A program made the position numbers and the translations under genes. Under the pieces are notes generated by a model. That model was not told the origin of the DNA. It did no database searches and saw only the letters and a list, made by a program, of their open reading frames with translations. A DNA stretch of 64,000 bases from Leishmania infantum JPCM5 (lineage: Eukaryota > Euglenozoa > Kinetoplastea > Trypanosomatida > Trypanosomatidae), in contig NC_009387.2 in assembly GCF_000002875.2 (NCBI RefSeq), positions 1-64,000 on the forward strand, given 5' to 3'. This document shows, in pieces, positions 20,170 to 54,832 of the stretch. The first letter of the stretch is position 1; every line of letters begins with the position of its first letter.

Positions 20170-21234
20170 TCAGCGCCTCCTCTTCTTTTTGCCGTTGTTT
20201 GAGTTGTTGGCAGCCACACCAGACTGCGGCGTCGTTTGATGGTTTCCTTTTCCAGTATTCGTGCTGGTGGCCGCCTCCCCCTCATCAGCCGCACCGCCGC
20301 GCGGCAGACGCGACGCGCTGAGCTCCTTCCGCAGTACCTGTCCGAAGTTGGACTTAAAATAGTTCACAGACTTGGCAGTGCTCAGAATGCACGTGTGCTT
20401 GTCTCGCTGGCTGTCACGAATGCGCACCAAGCACTTGGTGGGCACAATATCGCCCGCCTTCGTCATCGGCTCCGCCGTAGCAAAGTGGTAGAGGTTTTCA
20501 CGGGCCTGTTGCTGCTCCTTGAAGTAGTCCTCCGCCGTTCCGGAGGGCGTGGCACTTGTGCAATAGCGGAAAAGAATGGCCGCCTCACGTGTGCAGATAT
20601 CCTCCCATTCGCTTCGGGTCAGCGTGTACTCGGGTTGGCCATGTGCCACCCCGGTGACAACATCGTCCAAACCGCTGTTGCAGTGGCTCACGACGAGCTG
20701 ATGGAGATGAGCGCCAGTTGTAGGAGGGCAAAGCATCCGCGACGCCAAGGCGTACTGCTCGGCGAGGTAGGCGTCACCGTCCTCCGTCGGTGTGCCGTCC
20801 TTGGTGAGGAGCTCCGCCTCTTGTACCTGCTGCCACGCACTCTCGATATACGCCTCGGCCTCCTTGAGTGCTGCGGCACGCCGCTTTTCCGAGAGCAGAG
20901 CTCGCCCACTAGCACGAGTGTCGACCTGCTCCGTCTGCATCGCAGTGGGCACACTCTTCGGGTTAAAGCCGCCCTTGAGCACGATCCAGACGGACCCCCC
21001 GCGTTGGCTGCGTCGCCGCGAGCCTCGACGTGTATCGGCCTTGGTCTTCTTGGGGGCCTTTACGCTTGCCGCGTTTGCAGCTGCTGTCGAGGCCGCGGCA
21101 GCCGCGGCAACGGCCTCGCGTCCGTTCCGCTGCTCCTTGTGGTCGGCCTTGATTATGTGGAACATTTTGCTAAGGTCCGACAGCAGCGCCTTCTCCTCAG
21201 CCAGCTTGCGGAACCCACCGGTTTTCGCCGGCAT
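20170..21234 (-). CDS. Protein with a split SRP14-like domain
   Basis: A 354-residue protein whose ends match SRP14, the Alu-domain protein of the signal recognition particle that helps pause translation. Residues 15-30 (KALLSDLSKMFHII) align with the first helix (FLTELTRLF in human). Residues 79-88 (GGSVWIVLKG) align with GSVYITLKK. Residues 267-305 (KCLVRIRDSQRDKHTCILST, then KSVNYFKSNFGQVLRKEL) align with KCLLRATDGKKKISTVVSS, then EVNKFQMAYSNLLRANM. A Lys/Arg-rich C-terminus (GKKKRRR) is also typical. An Ala/Lys linker (about 40-75) and an insert of roughly 175 residues (about 90-265) divide the domain. The frame extends 27 codons upstream with a signal-peptide-like sequence, but a pyrimidine tract and acceptor AG at 21260-21261 lie inside it, so the ATG at 21234 is used. 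The assignment is by eye. Confidence 0.75.
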   Translation of the reverse strand: MPAKTGGFRKLAEEKALLSDLSKMFHIIKADHKEQRNGREAVAAAAAASTAAANAASVKAPKKTKADTRRGSRRRSQRGGSVWIVLKGGFNPKSVPTAMQTEQVDTRASGRALLSEKRRAAALKEAEAYIESAWQQVQEAELLTKDGTPTEDGDAYLAEQYALASRMLCPPTTGAHLHQLVVSHCNSGLDDVVTGVAHGQPEYTLTRSEWEDICTREAAILFRYCTSATPSGTAEDYFKEQQQARENLYHFATAEPMTKAGDIVPTKCLVRIRDSQRDKHTCILSTAKSVNYFKSNFGQVLRKELSASRLPRGGAADEGEAATSTNTGKGNHQTTPQSGVAANNSNNGKKKRRR

Positions 21235-34255: not shown

Positions 34256-37200
34256 CTACACCCACTGCGACCAGCCCGGAAACATCACGGCCAAGCTTTC
34301 CACCCGCTGCGCATCCTCCATCAGTTTGCGCACGTGCGTTGGCACGCTAAGCATGTCGCCACCGTCGTAGCCGCGCAGCTTCGCGTCGATGCGGGCAAGT
34401 GTGCGGGCGGCGTCGGCGCTGCTGCCGTGCGTGCGCACCGGCGCAGGCTGCCGTGTGTTACTCTCCTGCGGCACGGCACCAGCGCCGGTGACGCTGGTGT
34501 CGGCGCCCATTATGTGATTCGCATGCGTTGGCGAGCCGATGGCCCAGCGCGCCAAGGGATCGTGCATGATGGAGCTCAATATCGTGCGAATCAGCTCGCG
34601 CTTGCCGCGCAGCAAGTGCATCGCTGCCTCTGCACACGGGCGCAGGCTTCCCTCCGTGCCACGCACACCGAGGCCATCGATCATGTTGCGTGTGAGCCGA
34701 AACGGAACAAGCTCCGGTACAGGCAGCAGCTTGTTTTGATCGAAGGCGATGCCGAGATCAATGTGCACCACTTCCGCCGTTCCCTTGTGCAGGAGTATGT
34801 TGTTGATGTGCCGATCGCCCAGCCCGACAGTGTAGCCGACGATGCTCGACGCTGCAACGCTGCGGGTGAAGGTTTGCTGCCGATCCACCCACACCTGGGC
34901 GGACAGGTACTCCTCCAAGAAAAAGTAGTGCAGGGCAGGTGTGAACTGCGCGTACAGGCTCAAGAGCACCTGGCATTTGCGGCTATGCGGCGCGTTCTGC
35001 AGCTGGATTCGGCACTCCCGCGTGTTCGGCTCGCCCGGGAAGTACCGCTCATGAGCGCCGGGCATTTCCTCCTTGCCGGTATAGCGGCCCGTCAGGTACT
35101 CGCCGAGTGGGATGGTGTGTTCCACCCACTGCAGGATGCCGGCCGTCGGAGCCAGCGGCACAATCGTGAAGGTGCGAATCTGCAGCGGCCGCGTCGCGGA
35201 GCGTCGACGAAACAGACGATTCGCGGTGGCAAACACCTGCTCAATGAGCGCGTCCTGCCTCAGGTCGTCGCCAGCCTTCAGCAGCTGCCGGACGACCGTG
35301 CCATCGCTCAGCTCGCACTGCAGCACCTTTGGCACGTTCACACCACCAGGCGTCGTGAAGTAGTTGCGGTACCGCATCACATGCGGCACCGCGAGCGCGG
35401 CCCCTCCAGCGACGGCCGGTGTAACGAAAGGATCCACGGAGCTGGGCGGGGGGATGGCAAGATTACACGCGTCCTTGATCAGCATGAAGTCTTTGCAAAT
35501 CGCGTGGCGCTTCCCCACCTGCGCCGTGGCGGCACTGCGGTCAAACGCAAGCTCCAGGTATGCCGAGCTCAGCAGCTGTGCATGCCGGATCTGGGTCGAC
35601 AGTAGTGCGGCGGTCGAGGCGCTGTGGCCAGCGCGACTTGAAGCGTTCGCGGTGCTCTGTGCGGAGGCCAGTCCGGCGAGGAGCTGACGCGCCGCCGTGA
35701 TCTTCGCCTCGTCCACGTTGTGCAGCGTGTTGACATCTCGCGATTTGGCGAACGTGTGGCCGTGGTAGAGGGCTAGCAGCGGCCACACAACGTGCATCGG
35801 GTAGTCCCGTGCGAGCCGGGCAACAAGGAAAGCCAGCCGCTCGCCCTCGTGCTGGCCACCTAACTGCGCCGTCAGCTGCCCCGCCAGCGGCACAAAGACG
35901 GCCGTCGGAATTCGCTCGACGGCCTTGTCGAGTACTTTGCTCAGTACCTCGCCGCCGCCCTGCTCCATGTCGGCGGCGTTCACCCAGAGCTCCACAAACC
36001 CGAAGACGGCATGCACAACGTCTTCCTCGTGGTCCACTGGCAGGCACTTCACCTCCGACAGAGCGGCCGCGCCTCGATGGGTGCGCTCGGTGACGCCGCG
36101 AGCTGCGCCCTGCTGCGCCACTTGGTTAAACTGCAGAAAACGCGAGTAGGCGTTGATGGCGCTGCGGCGGTACAGCCCAAAATTGGACTTCTCACTCTGC
36201 CACTCGTCTTCAAGGCGCTTGATGTCGCCAGCAAGCTCACGAATACGTCGCCGTATGACGCGCAGTTGGTCTTCGCTGAGGATCACGGTTGGCGCGGCCC
36301 CAGCAGCCGCTCCCGCTGCCGCATCAGCGACGGCAGAGCGACCGCGCGCTTCTCTCAGAGGTGCCACGCCAGCAATGTTCACCAGTGTGGGCAGCACCGC
36401 CGTAGTCGTGGCTCCCGTCGTCGCATCGAGCTCCGCCACACCGGGCGGGCGGTGAAGTGGTGCGGCAGCCCGTCCCGTGCTCGGCCGCGTCGCCGCCTCC
36501 AGCTGCGCTTCCAGGTCCTCCTTGAGCCGCTTCGACTCCTCCACGCTCTCGCAGAGCTGCTGATGCTCGTGGCTTGTCAATCGCGCAGCGATGTCGTCGG
36601 CGAGTGTGTGGCACAGACGCGCTAACAGGAAGCTGCAGGCGCCGCTGCTGTCAGAAGCCGCCGCGCGCGAGAGAAACGGATCACGTACAAGCTGCGAGGG
36701 CGGCAGCAGCCGGAGTTCCCCGTGCCACACCATCAGCTGCTGGATCACACGCGGCTCCTGTGGGGCATGCCAAGGTGCGGTACGCGGTGGGGCGACATTA
36801 AAGTGGGCGAGGCTTGCCTCCCCGCGTGCCGCCGCGGCGGCCGGCTGAAGAAGCGCTAGGGCCTCCTGCCATCTGCCGAGGCCGTAGGCAACCTGTGCCG
36901 TGCGGAGTACCAGGTCCAGTTGTCGCGCGCGTTCTCGCACCTCTGCCGCGGCAGTACCAACGATCGCCGGCGACGGCGATGCCTGCTCACCTTCGCCGCC
37001 CGTGCCTTCTGCGTGCTGCTCTTTCCAGTCACGCAGCCAACGGTGCGCCGCGGCCGCATCTCGATTCAGCAGCGCCTGCTCTGTCGCCCCGAGCACAAAT
37101 CGGTACCAGCCTTCGCGGTCGCCGTAGACCTGGCACAGCGCATGGCGTACGGAGTCGAGCAGCTCCCTGGAGGCGTAGTCGACAGTGCTCGGCACCCGCG

Positions 37201-40200
37201 CAGTCGGCAACTCGGCAGCGTCCAAGCCTGATCCTCGCGCTACCGAGTCGCCACGCAGGCTCCGAAGCCACGTGGGCAGCTCGACTACTCGGTCGCCTTG
37301 CTTCCACTTCGGCGCGGCACCGCGGCCGCGCGATGGTTTCCCTGCTTTGCCCTTCCTCGCGGCTGCATCGGCTGCTAAGAAGCGCGCCGCGCAGTCACGC
37401 ACTTCATGGAGCGCCTCTGCCGCCATGACGGTCGTCACGAAGGTAGTAGGAGACAGTTGCTGACGAAGGGCCGACTCGGCGCGGCGCACGTGCTGCATGC
37501 TCAGCAGCGGCTGCCCATTTGTGAGAGTAATAAAAGCGCTGAGAAGGTGAACGTAAAACCTCCCCGCTGACGCGGGCATCAACGACGCGCCACAGGATTC
37601 TGGTGTCGCCGTGTTCCCGCGTAGCGAAAGGCGGTCTAGTACTGCGCGGGGCACGCACTCGGATGAACAGCTTCCGGGGCAGTCGCCAGCGACGCCACCG
37701 CCACAGGACCACCGCCCGCACTTCCAGGCGGCCTCAGCGAGCAAGGCCTGTAGCGATGCCTCGTGTGCGGGCGTCCACGACGACAACATATCGGTGTTGC
37801 CAGCAGCAGCGTCGATCGTTTCGCCGGCCGCACCTGTCAAGAACACCTCCGGCCCCAGTTCCGTTGTGCCCCTGCCGGCCGCGCGCCCTGGGGCACTGCA
37901 AGCACGTACGGAGTCGTCCGCGACGCCGCGTTCCGCAGCGCCACTGTCGCTGCGATGCCGCTCCGCGGCTTCCCATCGCCGCTCGGCCGGTTGCAGACTC
38001 AATAAAACGTCCAACGCCGTGGAGGGGAAGCCGTGCTGGAGGAGAAGCGCCGCACGCTGTAAGTGTGCGGCCCATGGGTCGGGCCGCCGCTCCTGCACCT
38101 CACCCGTCAGCGCGACACTGGGTCTTGCAACTTCGACAGTTGCACCGCCGAGTCCGCTATCAGCCGCCGCACTAGCACGTGGCACGTCACTGCCCCACAG
38201 CCTGCCGCTGGCATGATGAGTCTCGCTCTCCTCCAAGAGGCGCATCTCGTCCAGCCAGGCAGCCGTGGCGGAAGGTGCAGCAGCTAGACTGTCGTCCGCC
38301 CCGCTGGCGACCGACGTTGTGGGCGTGACGCCACTTTCGCGGTATCCCACGACTCGGCGAATGGCACGACCACTGGACCGGCCACGTGCCGAGCCGAGGA
38401 GGCTCGCGCTGAGGGCAGATCCGCTGCCCACCCAGGAACACCACTTCGCACCGTCGCCGTGCGGTTGAGCGCTCGTGACGGACTGCAGCCGCATCATGAG
38501 CGACACCCCCACGACATCATCCAGCTCCAACTGTCCCTGCACCGACGCGTACAAGTCGAAGATGTCCTCCGCAAACGACCGAGTCTGCCGCCGTACAGCG
38601 TCGTGGCGGTCGCGGGCGCGGCCACCGCTGCGGGTTGCGCCAGCACCGACTGTGTGCGTCACGGATGCGGCGGAGGGGTAGTCGCCCGGCCTGGCAAACG
38701 GAAACAGTATCGAGTAGGGTGTGCTTGACATGGCTAGCACCGCTTCTCCGGCGCCGGCACCATCGCGAAGCATCACAGCCGACAGCGTCGTTTCCGACTC
38801 CCCGCAGAGCGCCGCAGCGCCTGTGCGTGGCCCGTAAAGCGACTCGCCGCTGAGTTGGGAGAACAGGAGGGCGAGGTGCGGCTCGCCTACTCGCACCGCG
38901 GCACGAGCAAGGCGCGCGGCGGGGATGTCGCTGAGCCAGTAGCACTCGCCCATGTCCTGCAAGGATGGCACAGAACCGAGGATCGATGGCCATGGAGCCA
39001 CCTCGGCCCGTGCGCCGTCGCCTGCAGCAGCTGCTGCTGCTGCTGCAGAGAAAGACGAGGTCGCTTTGGCGCGGCCAGCCGACGCCGCCGTTGCTCCCTT
39101 GAGGCCGCGCTGGCGCGTGGACCGAAGCAGGACCGCATGGCACTGCTCAAGGACATGGAGAAAAAGACGTGCAGTGTGCGCGCAGCGCTCCGCCTGCTGA
39201 AAGACGTACCGATCCAGCTGTCTACTCCACTCCTGTCGCACTACGCGCTGCCCTTCGCTCTCGCGCAGGCACAGTGCATGCAGCAGCACAGGGAGAAGCA
39301 GCTGCTCCGCAATGCGCACATCGCTGCCTGCGCTGTCGCATGCCGCGTGCACGCCATCAAGGTCGCAGGCAGGTGATCCAGCCGATGATGTTGGCACCGC
39401 TGTAGGGCCCTCAGCAGTCCTCAACTCCGCCATCAGCAGAGGCACCAGTGCGGCCCACAGTAGACTCTTCTTCAGCATACCGTAGGTATTGGCAGCGGCC
39501 AGCACGAAGCGGCAGAGAAACGCGCGCTGGTTCGGTGGACACTGCCGTAGCGGTGCCCACACAGACGGGCTCCTGAGATGGGTGTCGGCGGCGGCGCCTC
39601 GCGTGCCGAAGGTGGCACGCTGTCGACATGACCGTGAGCCGCAGCTGCCGCTACGCGTCACCCACGAAAGACGCCGTTGAAGGCAGTAGCACACGCGTGC
39701 TTTCGGAGACGGCATCTGGTCACCGCCACTCGCCCCGACAAGCTCGCCGGCGGCGGCGGCGGCGGATGGCCCGGTGAGCTGCTGCCGCCACGCGCTCGCC
39801 ACGAGCTGTGCAACGGCCTCGTCAAAGCACGACGGCGGCTCTGCCGGCCTCGGCGGCTCCGCCCCGTCCGCCCCGTCCGGGCCCGACGCGATGCACAGCA
39901 CCCACGCACGCAGCGCGCACATGCCCAGCTCCGAGGCGTCTGCATCACCGCACCAGACGAGTTGCTCGAGCGTGCGCAGCTGATGCGCGTACGCTTGCGC
40001 GAGCATTCCCGCAACGATCCCTTCCGCAGTTTGGTTGCTTGGCAAGCCGTCGTCTGTTAGCGCCGACTCGCTCGCCGCAAGGAGCGTGCTGGCGGACGAG
40101 CCGCTGCGTTGCGCTTCATGTCGCAGCCATTCCGATCCAGACCCCATTCCTGATGGGGCGCTTGATACGGCCGCCGCGCAGTGAGGAAGCGTGGCTGCCT

Positions 40201-43200
40201 CTCCGCTCAACACGACGCAGAGCGCGAGCGCGCGAAGTAGTCGAAAGGCGGCGAGCAGCTGCTCATCTGCCGAGTCCGCGGACAGCATCTGCAGGCGTGT
40301 CGTATGGACACCGTGCACGTCCTCGCCGGCTACATACCCCGGTAAAAGAGGTCGAAATTGGTCTGCTGCGTCCGCGTATTCCGTTGGGAGGGCCGCCATG
40401 TTGCAGTGGCACAGGCGATAGAGGTGCTGAATGGTGTCCAGCAGGACAGCACGCACGTCAAGCGCTGACAACTCCGCCGGTCGAAGCGAGCCGCCCGTTC
40501 GCACGCGAGAGCGACGGTGTGCCGTAGGCCCTGCCGCGACCGGCGGTGCATGGCCTGCGCGAAGGCACACGGACGCGACATGAAGACACCGCACGAGTAG
40601 CGCCTGAGCGGAGTCCACAGCCACGGTGATGTCCTGGAGCAGCGGAGCAGAGGGAAGAGGTGCGGCGCTCGTGTGCTCGACTATAAGCTGCATGGAAACA
40701 GCACAACTCTCCGGTGGCACGAGCTCGTCCATGTCGGCGTTGCTTCCGTGTTCCTCCACGGTGCCGGGGACGCCCTCGAGCGCCTCGTCGCTGTCCTCCT
40801 CGTCGTGCCCCGAGACGTATCGAAGAAGCCGTTGGAGTCCCAAGAGGTGCCCGCGTGCACGCGGGTTGGATAGTGGTGCCAAACACGCGGATCGTTGAGC
40901 CTCGTACATGGACCACGTCCACTGCTCCCCATCGAGCGGAAGGGAGCAGCCGCCGGAGACGGCTTCGGATTCGGCGGCGCCGGCACCGGCAGACGCTCCA
41001 GGCGCTCCATCGCTCGCCGCACCTTCCTCATTTCTCTCCGCCTCGTCGTCCGTGGGCTCATCGATGCTGATGGCGCCACGCGCAAGCACCCGTTCCTTAC
41101 CTTCCGCAGCTGTCTCCGCACCTATCCGTGTCGCACGCCTGCTCTCTGTGTCAGCAAGGTAGGCAAGAACCCGTTGCTGCCAAGCCGATCGCCTCAGGTC
41201 CGGGTCGATGCGGCACAGCGCCGCCCACGTCGAGGAGATTAGCGGCGACACTGCCGTCAATGGTGCCAGGCTGCGCGCCACCATAAGTCGGCAGTGGCGC
41301 CGCTGGGTAGCTGGAGTGGTCCCCCAGCCTCTGTGGCGCGGGGCGTTACCGCGGCCGGCTCTAGCAACCTGCCAGACATGCAGCAGCGCGTCGCAGACAA
41401 GTCGCCGCACCGCCGCCGCAGGGGAGCGTCGCAGCCAATGAAGAAGGTGTGAGAGCACCAGCCGAAGTGCATGCGGCTCCGTGAGGACACGAGCAGAGCA
41501 CCAGCAGGTGGCGATGTGCGTCAGCAACGATAACTGCTGAAGCGCGCGGAACTGCAGCTCCAGAGACGGCAGTGCAGCACTGCTGCGGTATACCGCGTGC
41601 AGGAGCGCGTAGAGGTAGGTGCTGTTGCCTTGCAGCAAGAACCTTGTCATGACGTCGTCCGTGAGGGCTGCAGCATCGACAGATTGCCTGGCACTCGGCA
41701 TGTCAGTGACTGGCGAGTGGAGCTCACAGTTTGGCGCTGCTGCAGGGGGCACGAGCAGGGCGAGGCAATACGCCTCCCAGTGTGCTAGATCACTTGAAGT
41801 GCAGCGAGGCACGAGCCCCTGCGTTGTCTCCACTTCAGCAGTCGCTGAGCCACGGCCCTCGGCCGAGCTCGCATGCCGCGTCCTTGGATCGCGTAGACCA
41901 GGCATTGGCAGCGGCACGGAAGTAATCTTCTCGGCCACCCAGGAGAGGGCCCGCTGCAGCTGCTCGGGGGTTCCGTAGACGGGCGCTCCTACCTCGGAAG
42001 TGGTGCGGTGAAGCACTATCAAGGCCTCCATCACGGCGTCCGCCTGCGCGGCAAGCACCACGTCGAACGCGCGCCGCTTGTGCGGCCACGCACTTCGATG
42101 CTGTAGGTAGTAGAGCAGCACTTCCGCGGCGCTGGACGCAGTTGCGGGGTGGCACAGAACCGCCCGAGCCGCGGCGGCGCTGAACGTTGGCTGCGGCGAC
42201 TCGCCGCTCACGTGTCGGCGGCCGGTGAGGACCAGGCGAACGCCTTGCGCCAACATCGTCGCCTCAGCCGTGTTGAGCTGCGCCTCGAGCCAGTAGAGGC
42301 ACCGCTGTGCTACTGAGGCCCACGTTGGCGTCATGTCGGATGCGCTTGCACGACTTGAGTGGCCTCCGCCACTGCCGCGATGCTCGACCGCAGCGTCCGC
42401 GTGCCCCATACGGCGGGGCCAGTCGGCAAACTCGCGGGAGTTCCTTGCCTTTCCAAGATCGGCGAGACCTCCGGCGTCGCCAGCAAAGGGCGACACCGGC
42501 GCGTGAGACGCGAAGACGAGGAGCTGCGTCACGATGCCTGGAAAGTAGGCCAGCAGCATGCACAGAGGAGCGAGGCGATGGAGAGCGCCCGCGTCAGACA
42601 CGGCAGTGGCATCCGTCTGCGATTCGGCCTCGGTGGCCTCGTCCTGCTTAGCGGTCGCGTCACTGCCACTTGCCTCCGTTCGGCGACGCCGTCTCGCTGC
42701 ACCCAACGCCTCCGCCGCATGTTCGCTTTCTTCCGCGGCCTTCGCCACGAGGGTATCAGCGTATGCGGAAACCAATCTCTCGTAGAGGCTGCCCTCTGCT
42801 GAGGCGCCGTCGCATCGGCCCCCGCCGCCGCGCGTGGCGACGAGGGACCACTGCTCCTCCGTAGCTTCCGTCAGAAGCAGCAGCGCCAGCGGCGACAGCA
42901 CGTCAAGGTGCTGCACGACGAACGCGGTCTGCGTCGGGTAGCCAAAGCACTCCACCGGCAGCGCCGCATGAGGATGACGGTACTCGCACAGCCACTTGAA
43001 GAGAAGGGGTCGGGCATGCATGCGGCACAGGTGGGTGTACGGTAGCGAGCGTGGCAGCGATGCGCCACCGGCGGGTGCCGTCAAGCGGGCGCCCTCCAGC
43101 ACCGACGCCGACATCCGCTCAAGACACGCCACCACAAGTCGATGGTGCCTAAAGCCGCGGGTTGCCCAGCACTCGAGGAGGGTGTACAGCACGTCCACCA

Positions 43201-46200
43201 GCAGCTCCGGTGCCGCCCGCACCGCTTCCGACAAGGCAAGCAGGCTCGTCGAGCACAGCGTTTCGGTAGAGGAGAGCATGCCTTCTCGCGCCTTCGTGAG
43301 GAGGGTGTGGAGCACCTGCGTGCGCCGTGCAGAGAAAGTGCGGAACAACGTGCCCACCTGCAGCGCCGCGTGGTGGCGCACCTCATACGGCGACTTCTCG
43401 GCGAGGAACTCGAAAGAAAAGCGGCCAAGCACTTCGGCAACAGCCGGCTCGCAGCGCGGTAGCACCGCGAAGGCCGCCTGGAGAAGCGCGCACTGCCACG
43501 CAGGAGTGCACACTGGCATGTCCACGCGACTGTGGTCCGTCAGCTGAGCCGTCCACAGCTCCAAGAGGCGCCCCTCGTGCGCGTAGAGGAACGCGGCGGC
43601 ATCGCTGCATCCCTGCGAGTCCCGCTCACCAGCGTCCCGCAAGGTTGCAGGATGCCTGCGGAAGTCCAGCCACCTGATGTCAGCGACGGTACCGCAGAGG
43701 AGGCCGCTGCATAGACCTGGTCCCAGCTGATAGCGGTAGCGCACAAAGAGCACCTGCAGAACTTGTACCACGGCTCGGCAGCATTGGAACCCCCCAGCGG
43801 CGCCGGTGTCCGAATCAGCGGGCGGTGGCGGCAAGCAGCCGATGAGTGCCAAGAGGCGCAGAAGAGGTGGGAGGGCCAGCAGTATCGTCGGCAGAAAAGG
43901 AAGTCTTTCGAGGAGTCGGTGATGGCTCGGTAAGAGGATGTCGCCCACGGCTGCTGCGTCGCTTTCGCCGCTCCCTCGAGCAGCGTCGCCAGTCAGGCAC
44001 GAGTCTGCACCAGCCGTATCAAGGAGGTGCTGATCGCGCAGCATGGTCACAATGGTGCGGCAAATCGCAGAGGTATCTGCGAGCGGCTCGGCCAGGTAGG
44101 CACCGATGCGTGTGCGCGAGGCGGCCCACAGCACCGTGCGCAGCGTGTCCACCGACATGTGCAGCGATACCGCCATAATGTGCGTCACCTCCCGAGATGT
44201 CGGATTAGAGGGGCGCCACCGGCTGAGCCCGCGCACGCCATCCTCGAAGATCCGCGCGGTCAGCGCGGCGGTAAAGCGCGCAATCGTGTGCCGAGGATCG
44301 GCGCAGGCGAAGGCCGGGTCTAGCAGTACCGTGCCGACATCGCGAAACAAGACATGCAGAGCCGTCCACAGCGGAAAGAACGCGCCGACGGCGTGTGCGT
44401 GGTCGAGCTCTGCCGCGATGTGATGGCACAGCCACAACACTGCGTAGTAGAGGCGGCCGCCGCCAGCGGCCGAGAAGCGCTCCAGCAGAGAGAGAGGAGC
44501 CGCGTAGACATCGGGAGAGGAACGCAGCAAGCGCAGATCTTCGCAAGCGGCCGATGCCTCTTCGCCCACGTCGAAATCAGCGGCGGCGCCCTCGGCACGC
44601 TCGCTCGCTGCGCTGGCATGTGTGCCATCCGCTGCTGAGCGCAAAAATGGCGCGTCCTTCGCCACCCCTGGAGTGACAGCGCCGCGTTCTCCAGCGGCAT
44701 GGACGCCGTCACGCGCGTGCGCGCTTTCCTCCGGTGTTGACCACAGTGCAGCGCGGCGCCACCGCAGCAGAAGATGCAGAAGTTGCACGCACTGCACACT
44801 CAATGCAAGTGCCATCGCCGACGCATCCAAGTCCGGCCGCACAGCGGTGTGAGTATCGGGTGGGCCGCCGCCTCCTCTGCGGTTGCCCTCCCGCCTTGAT
44901 ACCGCGGCAGGCGCCAACGCTGCAAGCGTGTGCCTCAGCTGGGCGCGCCTCATAAGCCATGCGACAGACGCCTGTGCACTTGAGGCCAACATGGCCTGAA
45001 ACGCCTGTAGCGCTGCTCGGCGAGGCACTGTCATCTGGAGCGGTGACACCCCTGTTCCGAGCGCAGCCGCGTCCGTGTCTGCCTTCGCATCCTCGCCCAT
45101 CGCCGCCCCCTCCTCCGCAGCGGCACTGCCGTCTTGCACATCAGTGCGGTCCGTTCCCTTCCGCAGCGGCAGCCGAAGCATCCAGTGCGCTTCAGCTGCG
45201 TCACGCAGCACTCCCGGCACCTGTGACGACGGTGACGTCACCGCCGCATCGAGCAGCGTGCACACGTGTTCGACATACGCCCCCACCTCACGGCGAAGGG
45301 GTCCTCGCAGGTGAGGCGTCATGGCCCCCGATGACGTGGAGAGAGAGGGCACGCCACCCAGTGCTGGCCCTTGGCCAAGTCGCAGTGATGTCGCCATCTC
45401 CGTCTGCTCCGCCACCTGCTGGCGCGCGAGACACATCCGCAGTGCGACGCACGCGTAGGTCTCCGCTAAGTCCAGCCACGCTGTAAACTGAGCAGCAGAG
45501 AAGAGCGCCACCGCATCGGCACCAGTCAGCGCGTTCCTCGTTTCTAGGGAGGCGCTCGTGGCTGTCAGGGCATCAGTGCCGATTCCACTTGCCTGCCTGG
45601 CAGCGCGTACTCCGCCACCGGCGACGTCGCCGGCGTGGCTGCCGCCGTCCGATGCACGTGTAAGGACCGGCACAGACCCAAGGAAGAGCGTGGCGTTGGC
45701 GGCGACGTGGCACAAGAAGCTGAGGCCGACGTCTTCCGCGGGACCGTCGCTGAGGCCCCACGTGTGGTCGTCGTGCACGACGCGGCACCGCTGCGGCTCC
45801 GCTTCCGTCGTCCCAGGGTCCACCGGCATGGCGGTGGAGGGGCAGAGCGTCATCTCCCACAGCCGCGTGCACTGCACCAGCGTGGCGAAGCGGGTGAGCA
45901 ACAGTGCCAGCGAGGCGGCAAGCAGCGGGAGAGGCGCGTCGTGGGCGCCGCCCACGCCGGCGGGCACTGCTGTCGCCCCTGCACTCTCGCACACGCGACG
46001 CATGTCCTGCTCAAACGCGTGCAGTCGCGCCACGCCGCGCTGGATGAGAGCGCGGTGGTGGTCACCCCAGGAAAGCAGAAAGCCGCTGAGCAGACGTCCA
46101 GACGACACATCCGGCTGTCCACTGCCAGCGGCGCCCGCTGATTGGCCGTTCCTCGGGGGATCATCTGGTGTTACTGTCGATAACCCCAACTCGTGCCGGC

Positions 46201-48976
46201 GGTGCAGATGCTGTTCCAGCAAGACGACCAGCACATGATAGACCGGCTCTGGCGGAGCTAGCACGTCCTCGTCATTTCTGGTGACAGGAACACGACTGCT
46301 GCTGACGCTGTCCAGACAGCCCGCCCAGCGCGCTAACGCCGGCGGCACAGCCGGCAGAGTGCGCTGCGCCACCACCGCGAAGGCGTACTGCTGCGTCGCA
46401 AGACTGCAGCGCGGAATCACCGCCTTCACAGCCGCCAGGAGCAGCTGCCCCAGCCGAAGCCCAAAGTGGCCGCACAGTGGAAGGAGTACATCCTCGACAA
46501 GGCGGTCGGCGACGGTCTCCGGCACCCGCAGCGTTGCGCACGGCTGGGCAAAGAGATGCAGCAGAAAAAGCGCAGTGTCGGACACGACGTCCTGTACGGC
46601 GGCGCTGCTGGTGCGGATGCTCGACGTGCCGATGCGGAGCACGAGTGGGGCGCCGCCGGCTCGCCGTCGAGTCAGAGTGGCTGCAGATTGCAGAGGGCGC
46701 TGCTGGACATCGTGCCCGGCAGTGGCAGCCCTACCGGCGGTGGTGCTGCTTTCCAGCGGCCCGGCGGGCATGAAAAACTCCTCTTGCAGCGTGTCAGCAA
46801 GGAGCTGCGCAGGATGGGGGCTCGCCGGTGGTGGAGTCCGTGCGGCGCCCGACGCGTCAGCAGCCTTGTCCATTGCCACTCCATCTACCACGTCACCGTA
46901 GCCTGGCTCGATGTCTCGAAGACGCTTGCACGCGCGCCTCGCCTCAGTTCCGGCGCCGTGGCGCCGTATCTGCTCTTCGTCCTCGTCATCTTCTGCCCCC
47001 TCCTTCTCCTGATCGGCCACCGTGCCACAGCGCGTGGTGCCGCTGCCGCCACAACGATTCGCCTGGGCAGCCTTCCACCGGCAGTAGGCGCCGTGTGTAA
47101 TGGACGTTACGTAAAGCGCCACGGCGCCAAAGTCGAACACTTCCTGCAGTGGCGAGCACGGGAAGCTGAAGAGTTCGCGGCGAGAGGTGAAGCTGTACTC
47201 GTGCCGGTGCTGTGTAAAGATGAGCTGCATCGTCGGAAACACGGACTGGTGAATGAGAACGACGAGGTGCCTCGTCGGCGGCTGCAGCAGCAGGTTCGCC
47301 GCCGTTGCAGCGCCCGTTGTACCTCGTCGCCCGACGAGGCCGACTCTTTCGCTACTCTTCGCTTTATGAACCATCTCGCGTGCGTCCGGTGACACCATCG
47401 CCGCCTCAGCGTCCGCATCAGCTGCGGCGCGGCGGCTGTGCGCGTGCAAGTCCTGCCACAGCTCCTCGCCCACAACGTCAGAGAGTGCGACGGACAGCAC
47501 CACCGTCAAGAACTGCATCGTCTCTAGCCGCCACACATCGTGGCGGGGCGTGTGGTGGAGCAGGAAGAAGAAGTCACACAGAAGTTTTACCACCTCGACC
47601 GGCGCGCGGGCGGCGATGGGGTGGTCGTAGCGAAATCGCTGGCAAAGCCGCCGAAGCGCCGCGATGCAGTAGGCCTCGAGCCGCAAGTCCGGTGTCGGGG
47701 CGCGATGTCGTGCCTTCACCACCTCGATCACACGCCGCACGAACGCCAGTGCCGCTGCGGCACCGCCACCGCCATGCATGCCAGCATCGGTCGCCGTGGA
47801 TGACGATGGCGGGTAGGCTGTGGTGATCTGTGGCAGTGCGCAGAGTCGCATGAGCACCTGTGCGTACAAACACGCGTCGTCAGCGCATGGGGCAGCCACC
47901 CAGAGTCGCCCGTCGGCCACCGCCTGAGCCACAAGATTCGGGGCCACCGTCAGCACGTCGGTGTCAGCCTCCTCCAGCGTGGAGACGCGTTGAATCAGCG
48001 TGACAAGACACTCTGAAAGGCGCACCAGATACGTTGGCGTGATCAGGCGAGCGTAGCCGGACCACCGAAGCACCTCGATGAGAAGCGCCGCGTAGTCAGC
48101 GCCAACAGCGGCGACAAGCCACTGACTTTCCAGCACTTCGAGAATGTGATTGCACAGAATGTTGAGCGGGGACGCGCTCTTCCACAGCAGCGGCGCCTGA
48201 CTCAAGGCGTCACTGGCGCCGCTGATCAGCAGCCCGTCCTCGTGGGCGCTGTCGCCTGTGCCCCAGACGTCGTCCCGGCCTCTCCATTCGCCGGCGCGCT
48301 GTTCGCCCCTTCGAGAGCCTCCGAACGCCGAAGAAGATTCGGGTGGCGCATAGCTGGGCGATGCGCTCCCCAGGAGCTCCTCGTGCCTTCCGCCTGAGCG
48401 CAAGGCAGCGGCTCTCCGAGTTGCGCCCAGTGTTCTGCCGCCACCCTCCGTGGCCCAGGTCATTAGCGGCTCGCCCTCTTCGGCGAGCGAGGTGTGCAGG
48501 CTCTGGAAGAGCTGGGCAAAGGGGCGAATTATATCCCTGCGCAGGCGCCGCCGTCGCGCCTCCAGTGCGTCGCGGCGTCCGGTGGCCGCGGAGGCGGCTC
48601 CGGATCCGAGTTTCGCCGCTCTGCAGCGCGCTGGACTGGTGGTATCACCAGAGGCAGCCACGGCGATCGCAGCGTGCTTCTCCGCAACGCGGCAGTACGT
48701 CATGAGGTTCGGCTTTACGATTCGCTCCAGCACGAAGATGAGCACATTGGACACGACGTGTTGGCCGAGGACGGCGTGTGGAGTGGTGCCGTGTTGCTCC
48801 GCCACTGACACAAAAAATTTCACGAACTCGAGAACGCACTGGCCCGCCTCTTCGCTGCTTTTCGCGGAAACGGCGGCGGCCGCCGCGTCGGATGTAACAG
48901 CGTTCACATCCGCCATGATTTTGTTCAGCCGCGCCTTGAGATGAGCGCTGTCCACGTTGGCGAGAAAGGACTCCAT
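34256..48976 (-). CDS. ATM/Tel1-type PI3K-related protein kinase (about 4906 aa)
   Basis: A giant Ser/Thr kinase of the PIKK family that should signal DNA double-strand breaks and protect telomeres in the nucleus. The kinase domain starts at about residue 4546 (VNVPKVLQC). K4567 lies in RQLLKAGDDLRQDA, the catalytic loop GLGDRHINN contains D4721 and N4726, and HIDLGIAF contains D4740. The C-terminus MFPGWSQWV is an ATM-like FATC end (human GWKAWV). The sequence downstream of the DLG, VPFRLTRNMIDGLG, also matches ATM rather than TOR or ATR. A FAT-type helical region begins near residue 3745 (LLAEAAWKCGRW). The rest is HEAT-like helices with many Gly/Ala/Ser inserts. It is about 1.6 times the length of human ATM. 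The frame extends 96 codons further upstream, but the acceptor AG at 49104-49107 lies within that stretch, so the ATG at 48976 is used. Confidence 0.93.
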   Translation of the reverse strand: MESFLANVDSAHLKARLNKIMADVNAVTSDAAAAAVSAKSSEEAGQCVLEFVKFFVSVAEQHGTTPHAVLGQHVVSNVLIFVLERIVKPNLMTYCRVAEKHAAIAVAASGDTTSPARCRAAKLGSGAASAATGRRDALEARRRRLRRDIIRPFAQLFQSLHTSLAEEGEPLMTWATEGGGRTLGATRRAAALRSGGRHEELLGSASPSYAPPESSSAFGGSRRGEQRAGEWRGRDDVWGTGDSAHEDGLLISGASDALSQAPLLWKSASPLNILCNHILEVLESQWLVAAVGADYAALLIEVLRWSGYARLITPTYLVRLSECLVTLIQRVSTLEEADTDVLTVAPNLVAQAVADGRLWVAAPCADDACLYAQVLMRLCALPQITTAYPPSSSTATDAGMHGGGGAAAALAFVRRVIEVVKARHRAPTPDLRLEAYCIAALRRLCQRFRYDHPIAARAPVEVVKLLCDFFFLLHHTPRHDVWRLETMQFLTVVLSVALSDVVGEELWQDLHAHSRRAAADADAEAAMVSPDAREMVHKAKSSERVGLVGRRGTTGAATAANLLLQPPTRHLVVLIHQSVFPTMQLIFTQHRHEYSFTSRRELFSFPCSPLQEVFDFGAVALYVTSITHGAYCRWKAAQANRCGGSGTTRCGTVADQEKEGAEDDEDEEQIRRHGAGTEARRACKRLRDIEPGYGDVVDGVAMDKAADASGAARTPPPASPHPAQLLADTLQEEFFMPAGPLESSTTAGRAATAGHDVQQRPLQSAATLTRRRAGGAPLVLRIGTSSIRTSSAAVQDVVSDTALFLLHLFAQPCATLRVPETVADRLVEDVLLPLCGHFGLRLGQLLLAAVKAVIPRCSLATQQYAFAVVAQRTLPAVPPALARWAGCLDSVSSSRVPVTRNDEDVLAPPEPVYHVLVVLLEQHLHRRHELGLSTVTPDDPPRNGQSAGAAGSGQPDVSSGRLLSGFLLSWGDHHRALIQRGVARLHAFEQDMRRVCESAGATAVPAGVGGAHDAPLPLLAASLALLLTRFATLVQCTRLWEMTLCPSTAMPVDPGTTEAEPQRCRVVHDDHTWGLSDGPAEDVGLSFLCHVAANATLFLGSVPVLTRASDGGSHAGDVAGGGVRAARQASGIGTDALTATSASLETRNALTGADAVALFSAAQFTAWLDLAETYACVALRMCLARQQVAEQTEMATSLRLGQGPALGGVPSLSTSSGAMTPHLRGPLRREVGAYVEHVCTLLDAAVTSPSSQVPGVLRDAAEAHWMLRLPLRKGTDRTDVQDGSAAAEEGAAMGEDAKADTDAAALGTGVSPLQMTVPRRAALQAFQAMLASSAQASVAWLMRRAQLRHTLAALAPAAVSRREGNRRGGGGPPDTHTAVRPDLDASAMALALSVQCVQLLHLLLRWRRAALWSTPEESAHARDGVHAAGERGAVTPGVAKDAPFLRSAADGTHASAASERAEGAAADFDVGEEASAACEDLRLLRSSPDVYAAPLSLLERFSAAGGGRLYYAVLWLCHHIAAELDHAHAVGAFFPLWTALHVLFRDVGTVLLDPAFACADPRHTIARFTAALTARIFEDGVRGLSRWRPSNPTSREVTHIMAVSLHMSVDTLRTVLWAASRTRIGAYLAEPLADTSAICRTIVTMLRDQHLLDTAGADSCLTGDAARGSGESDAAAVGDILLPSHHRLLERLPFLPTILLALPPLLRLLALIGCLPPPPADSDTGAAGGFQCCRAVVQVLQVLFVRYRYQLGPGLCSGLLCGTVADIRWLDFRRHPATLRDAGERDSQGCSDAAAFLYAHEGRLLELWTAQLTDHSRVDMPVCTPAWQCALLQAAFAVLPRCEPAVAEVLGRFSFEFLAEKSPYEVRHHAALQVGTLFRTFSARRTQVLHTLLTKAREGMLSSTETLCSTSLLALSEAVRAAPELLVDVLYTLLECWATRGFRHHRLVVACLERMSASVLEGARLTAPAGGASLPRSLPYTHLCRMHARPLLFKWLCEYRHPHAALPVECFGYPTQTAFVVQHLDVLSPLALLLLTEATEEQWSLVATRGGGGRCDGASAEGSLYERLVSAYADTLVAKAAEESEHAAEALGAARRRRRTEASGSDATAKQDEATEAESQTDATAVSDAGALHRLAPLCMLLAYFPGIVTQLLVFASHAPVSPFAGDAGGLADLGKARNSREFADWPRRMGHADAAVEHRGSGGGHSSRASASDMTPTWASVAQRCLYWLEAQLNTAEATMLAQGVRLVLTGRRHVSGESPQPTFSAAAARAVLCHPATASSAAEVLLYYLQHRSAWPHKRRAFDVVLAAQADAVMEALIVLHRTTSEVGAPVYGTPEQLQRALSWVAEKITSVPLPMPGLRDPRTRHASSAEGRGSATAEVETTQGLVPRCTSSDLAHWEAYCLALLVPPAAAPNCELHSPVTDMPSARQSVDAAALTDDVMTRFLLQGNSTYLYALLHAVYRSSAALPSLELQFRALQQLSLLTHIATCWCSARVLTEPHALRLVLSHLLHWLRRSPAAAVRRLVCDALLHVWQVARAGRGNAPRHRGWGTTPATQRRHCRLMVARSLAPLTAVSPLISSTWAALCRIDPDLRRSAWQQRVLAYLADTESRRATRIGAETAAEGKERVLARGAISIDEPTDDEAERNEEGAASDGAPGASAGAGAAESEAVSGGCSLPLDGEQWTWSMYEAQRSACLAPLSNPRARGHLLGLQRLLRYVSGHDEEDSDEALEGVPGTVEEHGSNADMDELVPPESCAVSMQLIVEHTSAAPLPSAPLLQDITVAVDSAQALLVRCLHVASVCLRAGHAPPVAAGPTAHRRSRVRTGGSLRPAELSALDVRAVLLDTIQHLYRLCHCNMAALPTEYADAADQFRPLLPGYVAGEDVHGVHTTRLQMLSADSADEQLLAAFRLLRALALCVVLSGEAATLPHCAAAVSSAPSGMGSGSEWLRHEAQRSGSSASTLLAASESALTDDGLPSNQTAEGIVAGMLAQAYAHQLRTLEQLVWCGDADASELGMCALRAWVLCIASGPDGADGAEPPRPAEPPSCFDEAVAQLVASAWRQQLTGPSAAAAAGELVGASGGDQMPSPKARVCYCLQRRLSWVTRSGSCGSRSCRQRATFGTRGAAADTHLRSPSVWAPLRQCPPNQRAFLCRFVLAAANTYGMLKKSLLWAALVPLLMAELRTAEGPTAVPTSSAGSPACDLDGVHAACDSAGSDVRIAEQLLLPVLLHALCLRESEGQRVVRQEWSRQLDRYVFQQAERCAHTARLFLHVLEQCHAVLLRSTRQRGLKGATAASAGRAKATSSFSAAAAAAAAGDGARAEVAPWPSILGSVPSLQDMGECYWLSDIPAARLARAAVRVGEPHLALLFSQLSGESLYGPRTGAAALCGESETTLSAVMLRDGAGAGEAVLAMSSTPYSILFPFARPGDYPSAASVTHTVGAGATRSGGRARDRHDAVRRQTRSFAEDIFDLYASVQGQLELDDVVGVSLMMRLQSVTSAQPHGDGAKWCSWVGSGSALSASLLGSARGRSSGRAIRRVVGYRESGVTPTTSVASGADDSLAAAPSATAAWLDEMRLLEESETHHASGRLWGSDVPRASAAADSGLGGATVEVARPSVALTGEVQERRPDPWAAHLQRAALLLQHGFPSTALDVLLSLQPAERRWEAAERHRSDSGAAERGVADDSVRACSAPGRAAGRGTTELGPEVFLTGAAGETIDAAAGNTDMLSSWTPAHEASLQALLAEAAWKCGRWSCGGGVAGDCPGSCSSECVPRAVLDRLSLRGNTATPESCGASLMPASAGRFYVHLLSAFITLTNGQPLLSMQHVRRAESALRQQLSPTTFVTTVMAAEALHEVRDCAARFLAADAAARKGKAGKPSRGRGAAPKWKQGDRVVELPTWLRSLRGDSVARGSGLDAAELPTARVPSTVDYASRELLDSVRHALCQVYGDREGWYRFVLGATEQALLNRDAAAAHRWLRDWKEQHAEGTGGEGEQASPSPAIVGTAAAEVRERARQLDLVLRTAQVAYGLGRWQEALALLQPAAAAARGEASLAHFNVAPPRTAPWHAPQEPRVIQQLMVWHGELRLLPPSQLVRDPFLSRAAASDSSGACSFLLARLCHTLADDIAARLTSHEHQQLCESVEESKRLKEDLEAQLEAATRPSTGRAAAPLHRPPGVAELDATTGATTTAVLPTLVNIAGVAPLREARGRSAVADAAAGAAAGAAPTVILSEDQLRVIRRRIRELAGDIKRLEDEWQSEKSNFGLYRRSAINAYSRFLQFNQVAQQGAARGVTERTHRGAAALSEVKCLPVDHEEDVVHAVFGFVELWVNAADMEQGGGEVLSKVLDKAVERIPTAVFVPLAGQLTAQLGGQHEGERLAFLVARLARDYPMHVVWPLLALYHGHTFAKSRDVNTLHNVDEAKITAARQLLAGLASAQSTANASSRAGHSASTAALLSTQIRHAQLLSSAYLELAFDRSAATAQVGKRHAICKDFMLIKDACNLAIPPPSSVDPFVTPAVAGGAALAVPHVMRYRNYFTTPGGVNVPKVLQCELSDGTVVRQLLKAGDDLRQDALIEQVFATANRLFRRRSATRPLQIRTFTIVPLAPTAGILQWVEHTIPLGEYLTGRYTGKEEMPGAHERYFPGEPNTRECRIQLQNAPHSRKCQVLLSLYAQFTPALHYFFLEEYLSAQVWVDRQQTFTRSVAASSIVGYTVGLGDRHINNILLHKGTAEVVHIDLGIAFDQNKLLPVPELVPFRLTRNMIDGLGVRGTEGSLRPCAEAAMHLLRGKRELIRTILSSIMHDPLARWAIGSPTHANHIMGADTSVTGAGAVPQESNTRQPAPVRTHGSSADAARTLARIDAKLRGYDGGDMLSVPTHVRKLMEDAQRVESLAVMFPGWSQWV

Positions 48977-50525
48977 CTCCGCAGATGGTTCAGCAGGTCG
49001 TGGGGAGGAGCTGCTGCTGCTGCTGCTGTTGCTGCTGTTGCTGCCAGGTGCGATGGAAAGCGGTGTGTGCAATGGAAGACGCTGGACTCGCCGCTGTTGC
49101 CCCCTCTCAGCACGGAGGAGAGAAAAGGCCGAGCCGGTCAAGTCTTGTTCGTTGCGCTTGGCTTCCGTGTTCGAGTACGTCCGTGAGTGCGTCAGTGACC
49201 GTCTGTTATCGCATGCTCTTCTACGTGATCTGTGATGCGCAAGGCGCGTTCGTCTGCGACACAAGCCGCAGAGAGCGAAAAAGCGGAAGAACGGGTGCCG
49301 CGTTGATAGACGCGTCGAAAATGTATGTGTGTCTGTGTGTCTGTGTGTGTCTGTGCGTGGCTGTACGTGTGGCCACTATCCTTTCCGCTGCAGCGGCTGA
49401 CACCCTCGGGGCGTGCCACGATAGAGTTCTCTGTCACTGGGGTGGTCCCGCTTCGATTCAGTTTCTTGGTTCGCTCTCGTCGACCCGGTCTCTCCTCTCG
49501 ATGGAGCTGGCTGATGCAACAAGTGTGGAGCACGCGAGCGGTGCATGATGAGATGCGGCGGAGAAAAGGTGCGGCGGAGGAGCAGTTTGACAGAGGTACC
49601 CTACATTGGAGCGCTGCTAGCGCTTCGGCAAGGCGCATGTGCGCTCTACAGTTTGCAGGGCGGGGCACGGGGTGGCCGAAACCGGTCGGCCGACGGCATG
49701 CAACGACGCCTCATCACGACGAAGACTGCGGTACAGAGCCTTTGGGTGGATCGAGCGGCGTCCTGCAGGAGCGCCCATACCCCACCCACCCACCCCCCGC
49801 ACACACGCACACCTCTGGAAGACGACAGCCAACGGTCGCAGCCTTTTTTGTTTATTTCCTCATGTAAGCGCGCCCGGAAAGAGTGGCAAGGGCGTGGCGC
49901 ATGAGGAGGAGGAGGGTGTGTGTGGGTGTGTATGGCGACACGTGCTGCACGCGTGCGAGAGCGTCGGCTCTCGCCGACCTCGCCCCTTACCTGTGATTCC
50001 GACTCACGGCTCCTCACTGACTCGTCTCCGGCATCGGTACTTCGCAAACGCACGGAGACGCACACAGGCGTGAAGGCGAAAGCGATCACAACCGCAGCCG
50101 TCCATCGCGCGCGCAGGGGACGCAGAGAAGCGCTCCGCAGAGGCGCGTGCGTGGGTCTCTCGGGCCCTCGTCCGCTTCGCTGAGCGGGCGATCAAAAGAG
50201 AGGGGTGGGTAAGGGATGGAGAGAAAGAGAGAGTAGGATCCGTCCAGAGTAGTAGTGAGCGAGCACAACCCAGAGTCGATCGCCGCGGCAGGGGCCCGCC
50301 CTCCCCACACGTAGACGCGGGACTATCAAACGGCTTCGTGCTGTCGTGCCTCGACGAGAAGCTGAGACGGGAAAAAAGTAGGTGCCGGCGTATTTGGTCA
50401 TAACTCCAATATTACCCCATTTTTCGCCGACAGGGGAGGGGGAGGGGGCTGGTAGCCGCACTGTGGCCGGTGGGGGCGTATGCGCGTGCCCTTGGCGAAG
50501 CACCTGATACGCGCCACAGGCCGTG
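48977..50525. other. 1.5-kb spacer, no gene seen
   Basis: 5' flank of the ATM-type gene and 3' flank of SF3A2. A GT-rich run lies at about 49321-49360. A CTG run (about 49011-49043, CAG on the sense strand) lies just inside the 5'UTR of the kinase mRNA. No gene is supported. Confidence 0.45.
49104..49107 (-). other. Probable spliced-leader acceptor AG (ATM-type kinase)
   Basis: The minus strand reads CCTTTTCTCTCCTCCGTGCTGAGAG, with AG at 49106-49107 and again at 49104-49105. The mRNA would start about 128 nt before the ATG at 48976, excluding the longer N-terminal frame. Confidence 0.6.
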
Positions 50526-52144: not shown

Positions 52145-54832
52145 TTATAGAAAGACCTCCAGCACATTCTGGACGGCACCGCGGCACACGGGGCAGGCGA
52201 ATACCTCCTCTCTACAGTGACTCTGCAGCCGCTGCACGCACAACCCACAAAGTCCGCCGTGCCCGCACGGCTGCAGCAGCACGCGGGATGGATGCAGCGG
52301 CTGGGCGCAGTAGAGGCAGTACCCGGAGCTGCTTCTCTGAGCGGCACCGCTGACATCGCCACTCGCCCCGCTCAGGCTCAGCTGGGTCTGTGTCATCGGT
52401 GACGCGAAGAAGCCATCCAGTGTCGACGTCACCACCGGCGCACCGCGGGGCGCGCCGGCAATGCGATCGAGGGAGCCCGAAGACGGCTGCTCCTGCCTCG
52501 CCGGCGGCGAACCGGCGCTCCTGCCCATGTAGCTCATCGCAAAAGACTCCAGTACGCCTCTTAGGGCACGCTGCAGCTCCACAAGAATGTCGTACACCGA
52601 TCCGCTGGCGTTCCACGAATCTTGCGAGAGACGGAGGACCTCTGCGAACACCTCTCCCGTCTCCCTGTCCTTGATGATGCCGGCGAAGCACTGCGCAGTG
52701 AGGGATGAGGGCGCGGACGAGAATGGGGGTGCCCCAGCAGCACCGGCGGTGGCGGACGTCGCGCCGTCGAGCAGGGTCGTCAAAGGGCTGGCAGCCGCAT
52801 CGACGAGGTAAATGCGCGGCGGCTGGGCGTAGACGCAAGCCTCGCCGTCCTTCGCAGCATCGCCCTCGCCCGCGGCGCCACCGATACGGGTCGGGGAGAA
52901 CTGAATAAGCACGCGCACCTGCAGCTCCACCACCGCCTCTACCGCCACCTGCTGCGTCACCCCAGCCTTGCCTCCAGCGACGGGAGCGGCGCTTTCCGGC
53001 GAGAAAGTCGTCGCAGCGGCAGAGGCAGCGTTGGCGACGGCAGGTTGCGGGCTCTGTCCAACGGTAGTGGCGTAAGGCCGTTCCTGTGGCATCGCGAGCA
53101 CCGCCGCCTTGTGCTCGCTGAAGATGGGCACGTAGGCGACGATGCGGTGCTTCGACGGAACGTACCGTGCGAGTCCGTCACCAAATCGCGACAGATCACG
53201 GAGAAGAGCGGCACAGCGGATGTGGGCTGCAGAGCGCTTGGGCAGCGCGTTCTTCATGAACGCCGGTGCGTTGTGAGAATGGTGGTGGTGGTAGACGTCA
53301 GCGCTGCCACTGCTGCCCAGCTGGCTGACGTTGGGTCGTGCGGGGAAGGCGTAGCTGCTTGTCGGCAGAATGAGCGGCGGCACCGCCTCGAAGTTACGCA
53401 CGACCACGTTGCGGACGTACGCGGTCAGCGTTTGGTATTTGTCATCCCCCGGTGCCGGGATGATGGCGCCGCTGATCGGGTCGATGTACTCGGCCCGGCG
53501 ACTAATAGCGAAGCCGTTGAGGTTCTGTATGTTGATGCACGCACGGTAGCGGCAGTACACGTATGCCTTCGCCGTCGTGTGGGGTGCAGGCGATGTCCCC
53601 TGCGACGCGCGTGCGCCTGCAGGCCCCATGAACGGAAATGGCCTGTCAGGGTTGCTGAGAGCGGCATCGACAGCGCCGCTGCCCCCGGCCGGACCGCCGC
53701 TCGTCGGGTTCTCGGACGAGTCTGTTGCTGAGGTAGGTGCGTAGACGGAAATAATCACAGGGGTGTAGTACACGGTGCCGCGGTAGGTGTAGGGCAGGAT
53801 GCCTCGAATCTCGTAGTGGTCGCTGCACTGAATGTACTTGAAGCCGTCACCATAGGCGAAGCGAAATCCCTGCAGGTCCGGGTTGGCCAGGATGCGAGAG
53901 CTGGAGATGTCGTATTCTTTGCGCGGCCGCACGGGCGTCGGCAGCGTTGAAAAAGCGGCGGAGTCGGATGGGGCACGCATGGGTGGTACACTGATGCTGC
54001 CTGGCGCGCTGCCGGCGCTTGCCTCGTTGGGGTTGCGACTGTACGGTGGCGGTCGCGCTTCGCCGACCACTGAAGAGGCAGATCTGCCATCTAAGGGGGT
54101 GAAGGGCGCTGTGGCACTGTTGCTGCTGTCGCCGCGCTGCATAGCCTGTGTGGACAACGAAAGCGGGCCGGTGCCGTCAGTGGGCCGCTCGCGGCCCGAT
54201 TCGCCTGGGCTGAGCGCCGCAGCCGCTCCACCGTTGCTGATTTTGCTCCACGCCTCGTCATCGTCGCTGTCCGAAACCGTCACCTTCTGGAATCGCCCAC
54301 TCCCGCCTCCAAGGATGGCGGCAGCAGAGTCGTGCAGCCCACCCGGCGGTGTCTGTTGCAGCGGCATGGGACGCTCCGCCGCTCGCTCTCGGCTCTGCAC
54401 TGAGGTTGCCGTGGCGGCAGCAGCTGCCAAAATACTGGCGCACTCAGTTTGCCCGTGGCGCTCTGCCATCTGCACCGGCCGCTCACCGAACGCGTTGGTG
54501 CAGTCCACGGGTGTGCGCAGCACCTCGACCAGGTAGCGCAGAATGCCGACCGCGCCGGTCGAGGCAGCAAGGTGGAGGGCTGTGTTGCAGGTGCCGCCGT
54601 TCGGGGCCAGCACATCCGCCTTGTACTCCTCGCACAGCATCCGAACCGTGCTGAGATAGCAGGACCACCCTGCTTGGAGAGACGCCAAGTCGGTGCGGTC
54701 GCTGTTTGAGATACAAGTGTAGAGCAGCGTCATGTTGGAGTCTTTTGATGGCACATTCACCCGCTCTGGGTGCTCGCGCAGCCACTGCCGTAGTTCCTCC
54801 GTTTTGCCTTCTGCCGCCCAGCGGAACTCCAT
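52145..54832 (-). CDS. Ankyrin-repeat RING-finger protein, probable E3 ubiquitin ligase
   Basis: An 895-residue protein. Residues about 1-145 are ankyrin-like (for example TALHLAASTGAVGILRYLVE and VDCTNAFGERPVQMAERHGQ). A Ser/Pro/Gly-rich linker runs to about 310. A folded central block (about 320-620) begins YDISSSRILANPDLQGFRFA and contains VRNFEAVPPLILPTSSYAFP; it matches no domain I know. A C3HC4 RING closes the protein: C839, C842, C856, H858, C862, C865, C880, C883 (CLYC, PCGHGGLCGLC, CPVC). RING proteins of this layout usually transfer ubiquitin from an E2, with ankyrin repeats recruiting substrate; that role is inferred. A strong pyrimidine tract with AG at 54839-54840 lies 6 nt before the ATG. 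Confidence 0.9.
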   Translation of the reverse strand: MEFRWAAEGKTEELRQWLREHPERVNVPSKDSNMTLLYTCISNSDRTDLASLQAGWSCYLSTVRMLCEEYKADVLAPNGGTCNTALHLAASTGAVGILRYLVEVLRTPVDCTNAFGERPVQMAERHGQTECASILAAAAATATSVQSRERAAERPMPLQQTPPGGLHDSAAAILGGGSGRFQKVTVSDSDDDEAWSKISNGGAAAALSPGESGRERPTDGTGPLSLSTQAMQRGDSSNSATAPFTPLDGRSASSVVGEARPPPYSRNPNEASAGSAPGSISVPPMRAPSDSAAFSTLPTPVRPRKEYDISSSRILANPDLQGFRFAYGDGFKYIQCSDHYEIRGILPYTYRGTVYYTPVIISVYAPTSATDSSENPTSGGPAGGSGAVDAALSNPDRPFPFMGPAGARASQGTSPAPHTTAKAYVYCRYRACINIQNLNGFAISRRAEYIDPISGAIIPAPGDDKYQTLTAYVRNVVVRNFEAVPPLILPTSSYAFPARPNVSQLGSSGSADVYHHHHSHNAPAFMKNALPKRSAAHIRCAALLRDLSRFGDGLARYVPSKHRIVAYVPIFSEHKAAVLAMPQERPYATTVGQSPQPAVANAASAAATTFSPESAAPVAGGKAGVTQQVAVEAVVELQVRVLIQFSPTRIGGAAGEGDAAKDGEACVYAQPPRIYLVDAAASPLTTLLDGATSATAGAAGAPPFSSAPSSLTAQCFAGIIKDRETGEVFAEVLRLSQDSWNASGSVYDILVELQRALRGVLESFAMSYMGRSAGSPPARQEQPSSGSLDRIAGAPRGAPVVTSTLDGFFASPMTQTQLSLSGASGDVSGAAQRSSSGYCLYCAQPLHPSRVLLQPCGHGGLCGLCVQRLQSHCREEVFACPVCRGAVQNVLEVFL

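Follow-up and report, generated by a model that had tools for sequence, protein, structure and literature searches.

An expanded SRP14-like protein of Leishmania infantum and other trypanosomatids, divided by a conserved helical domain

Does the signal recognition particle (SRP) of Leishmania, the machinery that directs newly made proteins into the secretory pathway and is described in trypanosomatids with 7SL RNA plus a tRNA-like RNA, keep an SRP14 protein, a subunit reported missing from these parasites? The question is raised by a 354-codon reading frame on the minus strand of contig NC_009387.2 of Leishmania infantum JPCM5, within the 64,000 nucleotides analysed here (positions 1 to 64,000, referred to as the window). 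A preliminary description of this DNA had proposed a highly expanded SRP14, and our analysis favours the reading that the gene is the kinetoplastid SRP14, an SRP14 module with a helical domain in loop L1 that would bind a reduced 7SL Alu end (probability roughly 0.77). The identity as SRP14 is supported only at the profile level, by the sequence comparisons presented below.

The frame runs from an ATG at 21234 to a stop at 20172-20170, and the mechanical open reading frame (ORF) extends further upstream, from a GTG at 21315. The features of the gene are as follows.

20170-21234, minus strand: coding region for the candidate SRP14 (354 amino acids plus stop), from the translation, 25 orthologs and a single strong genome match
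21133-21210, minus strand: helix 1 block, conserved, residues 9-34 (predicted helix 14-52), from alignment, conservation and model
21022-21132, minus strand: Ala/Lys linker, variable, residues 35-71, from conservation; mostly low confidence in the model
20965-21021, minus strand: strand 1 block, residues 72-90, GGSVWIVLKGGF (predicted strand 81-88), from alignment, conservation and model
20452-20964, minus strand: insert in SRP14 loop L1, residues 91-261, containing a predicted all-helical domain, from conservation and model
20296-20451, minus strand: block of strands 2-3 and helix 2, residues 262-313 (predicted strands 265-273 and 279-284, helix 287-305), from alignment and model
20173-20295, minus strand: low-complexity tail, residues 314-354, with the terminal KKKRRR at 20173-20190, from translation and alignment

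Checking the translation placed all the sequence blocks quoted in the preliminary description within this frame and in the order of SRP14, namely LLSDLSKMF (residues 17-25), GGSVWIVLKG (79-88), KCLVRIRDSQRDKHTCILST (267-286), KSVNYFKSNFGQVLRKEL (288-305) and KKKRRR (349-354). The separation of about 175 residues claimed between strands 1 and 2 was also accurate, as 176 are counted between the end of strand 1 at residue 88 and the start of strand 2 at 265 in the second structure model. A frame artefact or non-coding stretch was ruled out by the 25 orthologs.

These orthologs were recovered by sequence search (16) and by profile search (9, seven of them from Trypanosoma), the nearest being that of L. 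mexicana (91%). The 16 with an organism label came from Leishmania, Porcisia, Novymonas, Leptomonas and Trypanosoma, and the annotations seen were "hypothetical", "uncharacterized" or "unnamed". T. congolense was among the matches and T. brucei was not, in two protein searches that each scored only the ~8,000 candidates sharing most words and so do not indicate absence. The 32-Mb genome contained a single strong match, with two further ones at expectation values (E) of 0.07 and 0.26. Conservation was measured on an alignment of 26 sequences, the window protein and its 25 orthologs. Mean majority identity was 0.71 in the helix 1 block, 0.77 in the strand 1 block and 0.81 in the block of strands 2-3 and helix 2, compared to 0.40 in the linker and 0.41 in the tail. 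Linker length varied between 10 and 48 residues and the distance from strand 1 to D262 between 169 and 234, and a K/R-rich C-terminus was common to 26/26 sequences. Residues G79, W83, K87, K267, C268, R271 and K288 were invariant and G80 and L86 present in 25/26, with position 81 occupied by Ser (19) or Thr (7) and position 82 by Val (18) or Ile (8). The SRP14 sheet motifs GSV-aromatic-x-x-LK and KC-x-x-R, counted over the 26 sequences, were both present. The SRP14-like blocks are therefore conserved across the orthologs, one of the points by which the preliminary description proposed to judge its reading.

Profile searches linked these blocks to SRP14 (Pfam PF02290). The intact window protein matched no Pfam family, and SRP14 was the sole match of its intact C-terminal 105 residues (E 0.16), at profile positions 58-104, the place expected for strands 2-3 and helix 2. 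Once the linker and the insert were removed, the window core matched SRP14 with E 6.3e-4 (20.5 bits, positions 6-104 of 106); two of four other cores in the same test gave weak matches (0.05 and 0.15) and two gave none. Within a larger set of joined cores, SRP14 was matched in 12/16 (best 4.3e-4), compared to 4/16 for the runner-up family (best 0.0082). Whole-domain profile coverage was obtained only with joined blocks. Searching 177,635 PDB sequences with a 16-core profile gave ten matches, the first nine being SRP14 (E 1.1e-4 to 0.013), one of them a 9/14 fusion matched in a single stretch. Among the 26 intact proteins, SRP14 was matched in 4 (best E 0.057), more members than for any other family. 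Using a hidden Markov model (HMM) of canonical SRP14, 8/26 orthologs scored below E 0.01 at an assumed database size of 24,000, and the candidate ranked first among 802 ORFs of the window (E 6.6e-5; next 0.2). The helix 1 block was paired with SRP14 helix 1 in the PDB profile search and in the HMM-HMM comparison of the joined core, the strand 1 block with the SRP14 sequence GSVYITLK in both of these and with the canonical HMM, and the C-terminal block with SRP14 in the PDB and HMM comparisons.

Because the block joints had been picked with SRP14 known, uncut material was also tested by HMM-HMM comparison, the reference being 25 SRP14s from animals and plants and the null 200 column shuffles. 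The joined core scored 51.6 (probability 95.9%; shuffle maximum 20.3) and the intact 26-sequence alignment 33.5 (shuffle maximum 21.7). The uncut halves, left unjoined, each exceeded 200/200 shuffles, residues 1-100 scoring 32.6 (shuffle maximum 17.6; probability 74.2%) and residues 240-354 scoring 22.8 (shuffle maximum 19.2; probability 12.2%).

The AlphaFold2 model, of moderate confidence, revealed the order helix (14-52), strand (81-88), helical insert, two strands (265-273 and 279-284) and helix (287-305), recovering the alpha-beta-beta-beta-alpha topology of SRP14 interrupted by the insert. Predicted local distance difference test (pLDDT) values of the core blocks were mostly about 62-72, with 57 and lower at helix ends, and those of the insert helices, spanning 101 to 248, were 69-97. 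Identity in the insert was 0.66 over residues 99-185, with 17 invariant positions; this conservation indicates that the insert is a domain and not filler. Sequence searches of Pfam and the PDB found no convincing relative of it. An SRP9/14 fusion within the insert was considered and dropped, since the insert is predicted to be all-helical. Together, sequence and model support an SRP14 fold with a conserved helical domain of ~150 residues between strands 1 and 2. The expanded SRP14 of the preliminary description is thereby supported, with SRP14 profiles matching in register, a predicted alpha-beta-[insert]-beta-beta-alpha order and conserved blocks.

Compared to animal and plant SRP14, the candidate shares the element order, GSV-aromatic-x-x-LK in strand 1 and KC-x-x-R in strand 2, and with the animal proteins also K-x-V-N-x-F leading into helix 2. 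It differs in length (354 residues versus 109-192 among the SRP14 database entries listed), in the additional Ala/Lys linker after helix 1 and in the ~170 residues in loop L1. Where animals and plants carry the patch KK-x-(D/E)-(K/R)-K after helix 2, the candidate has S-x-L-P-R and a distant K/R tail. Loop L1 is a natural site for an insert: the published human structures do not show it, and in Plasmodium it is longer than usual (PMC8137916). The SRP14 of Plasmodium falciparum is extended in the same place, although its loop is short (residues 35-70) and it has a recognised SRP9 partner, whereas the candidate loop appears to hold a conserved helical domain.

The genome also encodes 7SL RNA (120.5 bits to Protozoa_SRP), SRP19, SRP54, SRP68 and SRP72. 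SRP14 and SRP9-21 were the only SRP families searched without a genome match, in agreement with the literature; both are weak negatives, and for SRP9 no control genome gave a signal. The 7SL match starts AGCUCUGUAACC, and the aligned consensus has CUGU and AC in upper case, that is, well conserved. The UGU stretch is retained in this 7SL RNA. At the locus L001 (1501-2071), the 7SL gene lies on the minus strand (1723-1501); a divergent tRNA-Arg (ACG) gene begins at a distance of 110 bases from where the Rfam match starts, with a match to 5S rRNA further on.

In a review, the 7SL RNAs of T. brucei and L. major are said to have no Alu domain, in contrast to Plasmodium, which has SRP9/14 (PMC8230904), and that of T. 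brucei is described elsewhere with shortened Alu helices (PMC8137916). The latter source also describes recognition of the UGU turn by SRP9/14 and a yeast Alu RNA that lacks helices H3 and H4. Yeast Srp14p, a homodimer by the title of Strub 1999 (cited in PMC4605306), would thus offer a comparable setting of reduced Alu RNA, with homodimerisation putative for the candidate. Literature searches on SRP14 and SRP9 in kinetoplastids, in a collection lacking most subscription papers, showed no kinetoplastid SRP14 among the papers listed. These were reviews, the Plasmodium study and articles with seemingly unrelated titles, and in one match the string SRP14 belonged to a read accession.

By analogy with these systems, we infer that the candidate binds 7SL RNA and belongs to the SRP. 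The reduced 7SL RNA would be contacted at its 5' UGU turn by the sheet face of the protein, which includes the invariant K87, K267, R271 and K288, and the SRP Alu end would thereby come to lie in the ribosomal site for elongation factors. As no SRP9 was found, it may act as a homodimer like yeast Srp14p or pair with an unrecognised SRP9. For the insert, a contact with the tRNA-like RNA, with the ribosome or with a further component of the SRP is a speculative role. A bolder version, which we regard as doubtful, is that the helical domain in loop L1 stands in for SRP9 and keeps the tRNA-like RNA bound to the minimal 7SL Alu end. The Alu domain would then consist of two RNAs and one protein, an arrangement without a described parallel.

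Several observations weigh against the identification, and the first concerns membership of the particle. A published trypanosome SRP purification, known from titles and a review, reportedly lacks SRP9/14, which counts against stable membership, provided that the purification neither lost nor overlooked the protein. The protein could then be derived from SRP14 and share its fold but act elsewhere, for example in nucleolar ribosome or RNA assembly, the SRP being truly without an Alu-binding protein. Such a role is favoured by the large and conserved helical insert, which none of the 25 SRP14s from animals and plants has, and by the weakly negative search for SRP9. We nevertheless consider it improbable, since the conserved face is canonical (GGSVW..LK, KC..R and K at 288), no second SRP14-like gene was found in searches that are themselves weak negatives, and the genome keeps the other SRP parts and a 7SL RNA with its UGU stretch.

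The remaining adverse observations concern the likeness itself. No match passed the Pfam gathering threshold for SRP14 (27 bits, a detection cut-off and not a biological feature), and five other families had better best E values (0.001 to 0.045) among the 26 intact proteins. Joining residues 10-90 to 262-310, the search outlined in the preliminary description, did match SRP14 (positions 61-104), but with the linker retained only at E 0.088, becoming significant once the linker was also omitted. For the intact alignment hhalign displayed 17 columns and gave a probability of only 49.5%. Taken by itself, the 54-residue C block fell below the shuffle maximum (17.8 versus 18.9), and in its PDB search SRP14 made up 5/11 matches (E 0.31-0.66), after an unrelated protein at 0.14. 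A Foldseek structure search of the model gave nothing significant. The scores below the curated cut-off, the C block and the Foldseek outcome would favour a kinetoplastid-specific protein in which two short blocks resemble SRP14 by chance. Against chance stand the two uncut halves, each above every shuffle, the collinear matches in correct register and the correct predicted element order across the 176-residue gap, which together leave this explanation very improbable. Least credible is a homologue of SRP9 or SRP9-21, which has the same fold: the SRP chains numbered 2-75 among the structure matches of the second model, presumably SRP9, would favour it, but the nine leading PDB sequence matches are SRP14, none being SRP9 alone, and SRP9-21 (PF05486) is not among the Pfam families listed for the 16 joined or 26 intact members.

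Elsewhere in the window, the minus strand carries an 895-residue frame at 52145-54832, which has ankyrin repeats close to its N-terminus and ends in a C3HC4 RING finger, and a very long open frame of ~5000 codons at 34256-49264.

If the gene is indeed SRP14, the model of a trypanosomatid SRP devoid of SRP9/14 would need revising. The elongation-delay arm of the particle would then retain a protein, enlarged and overlooked by family searches, and a core secretion factor would carry a lineage-specific insert, in one named gene that is now open to direct test.
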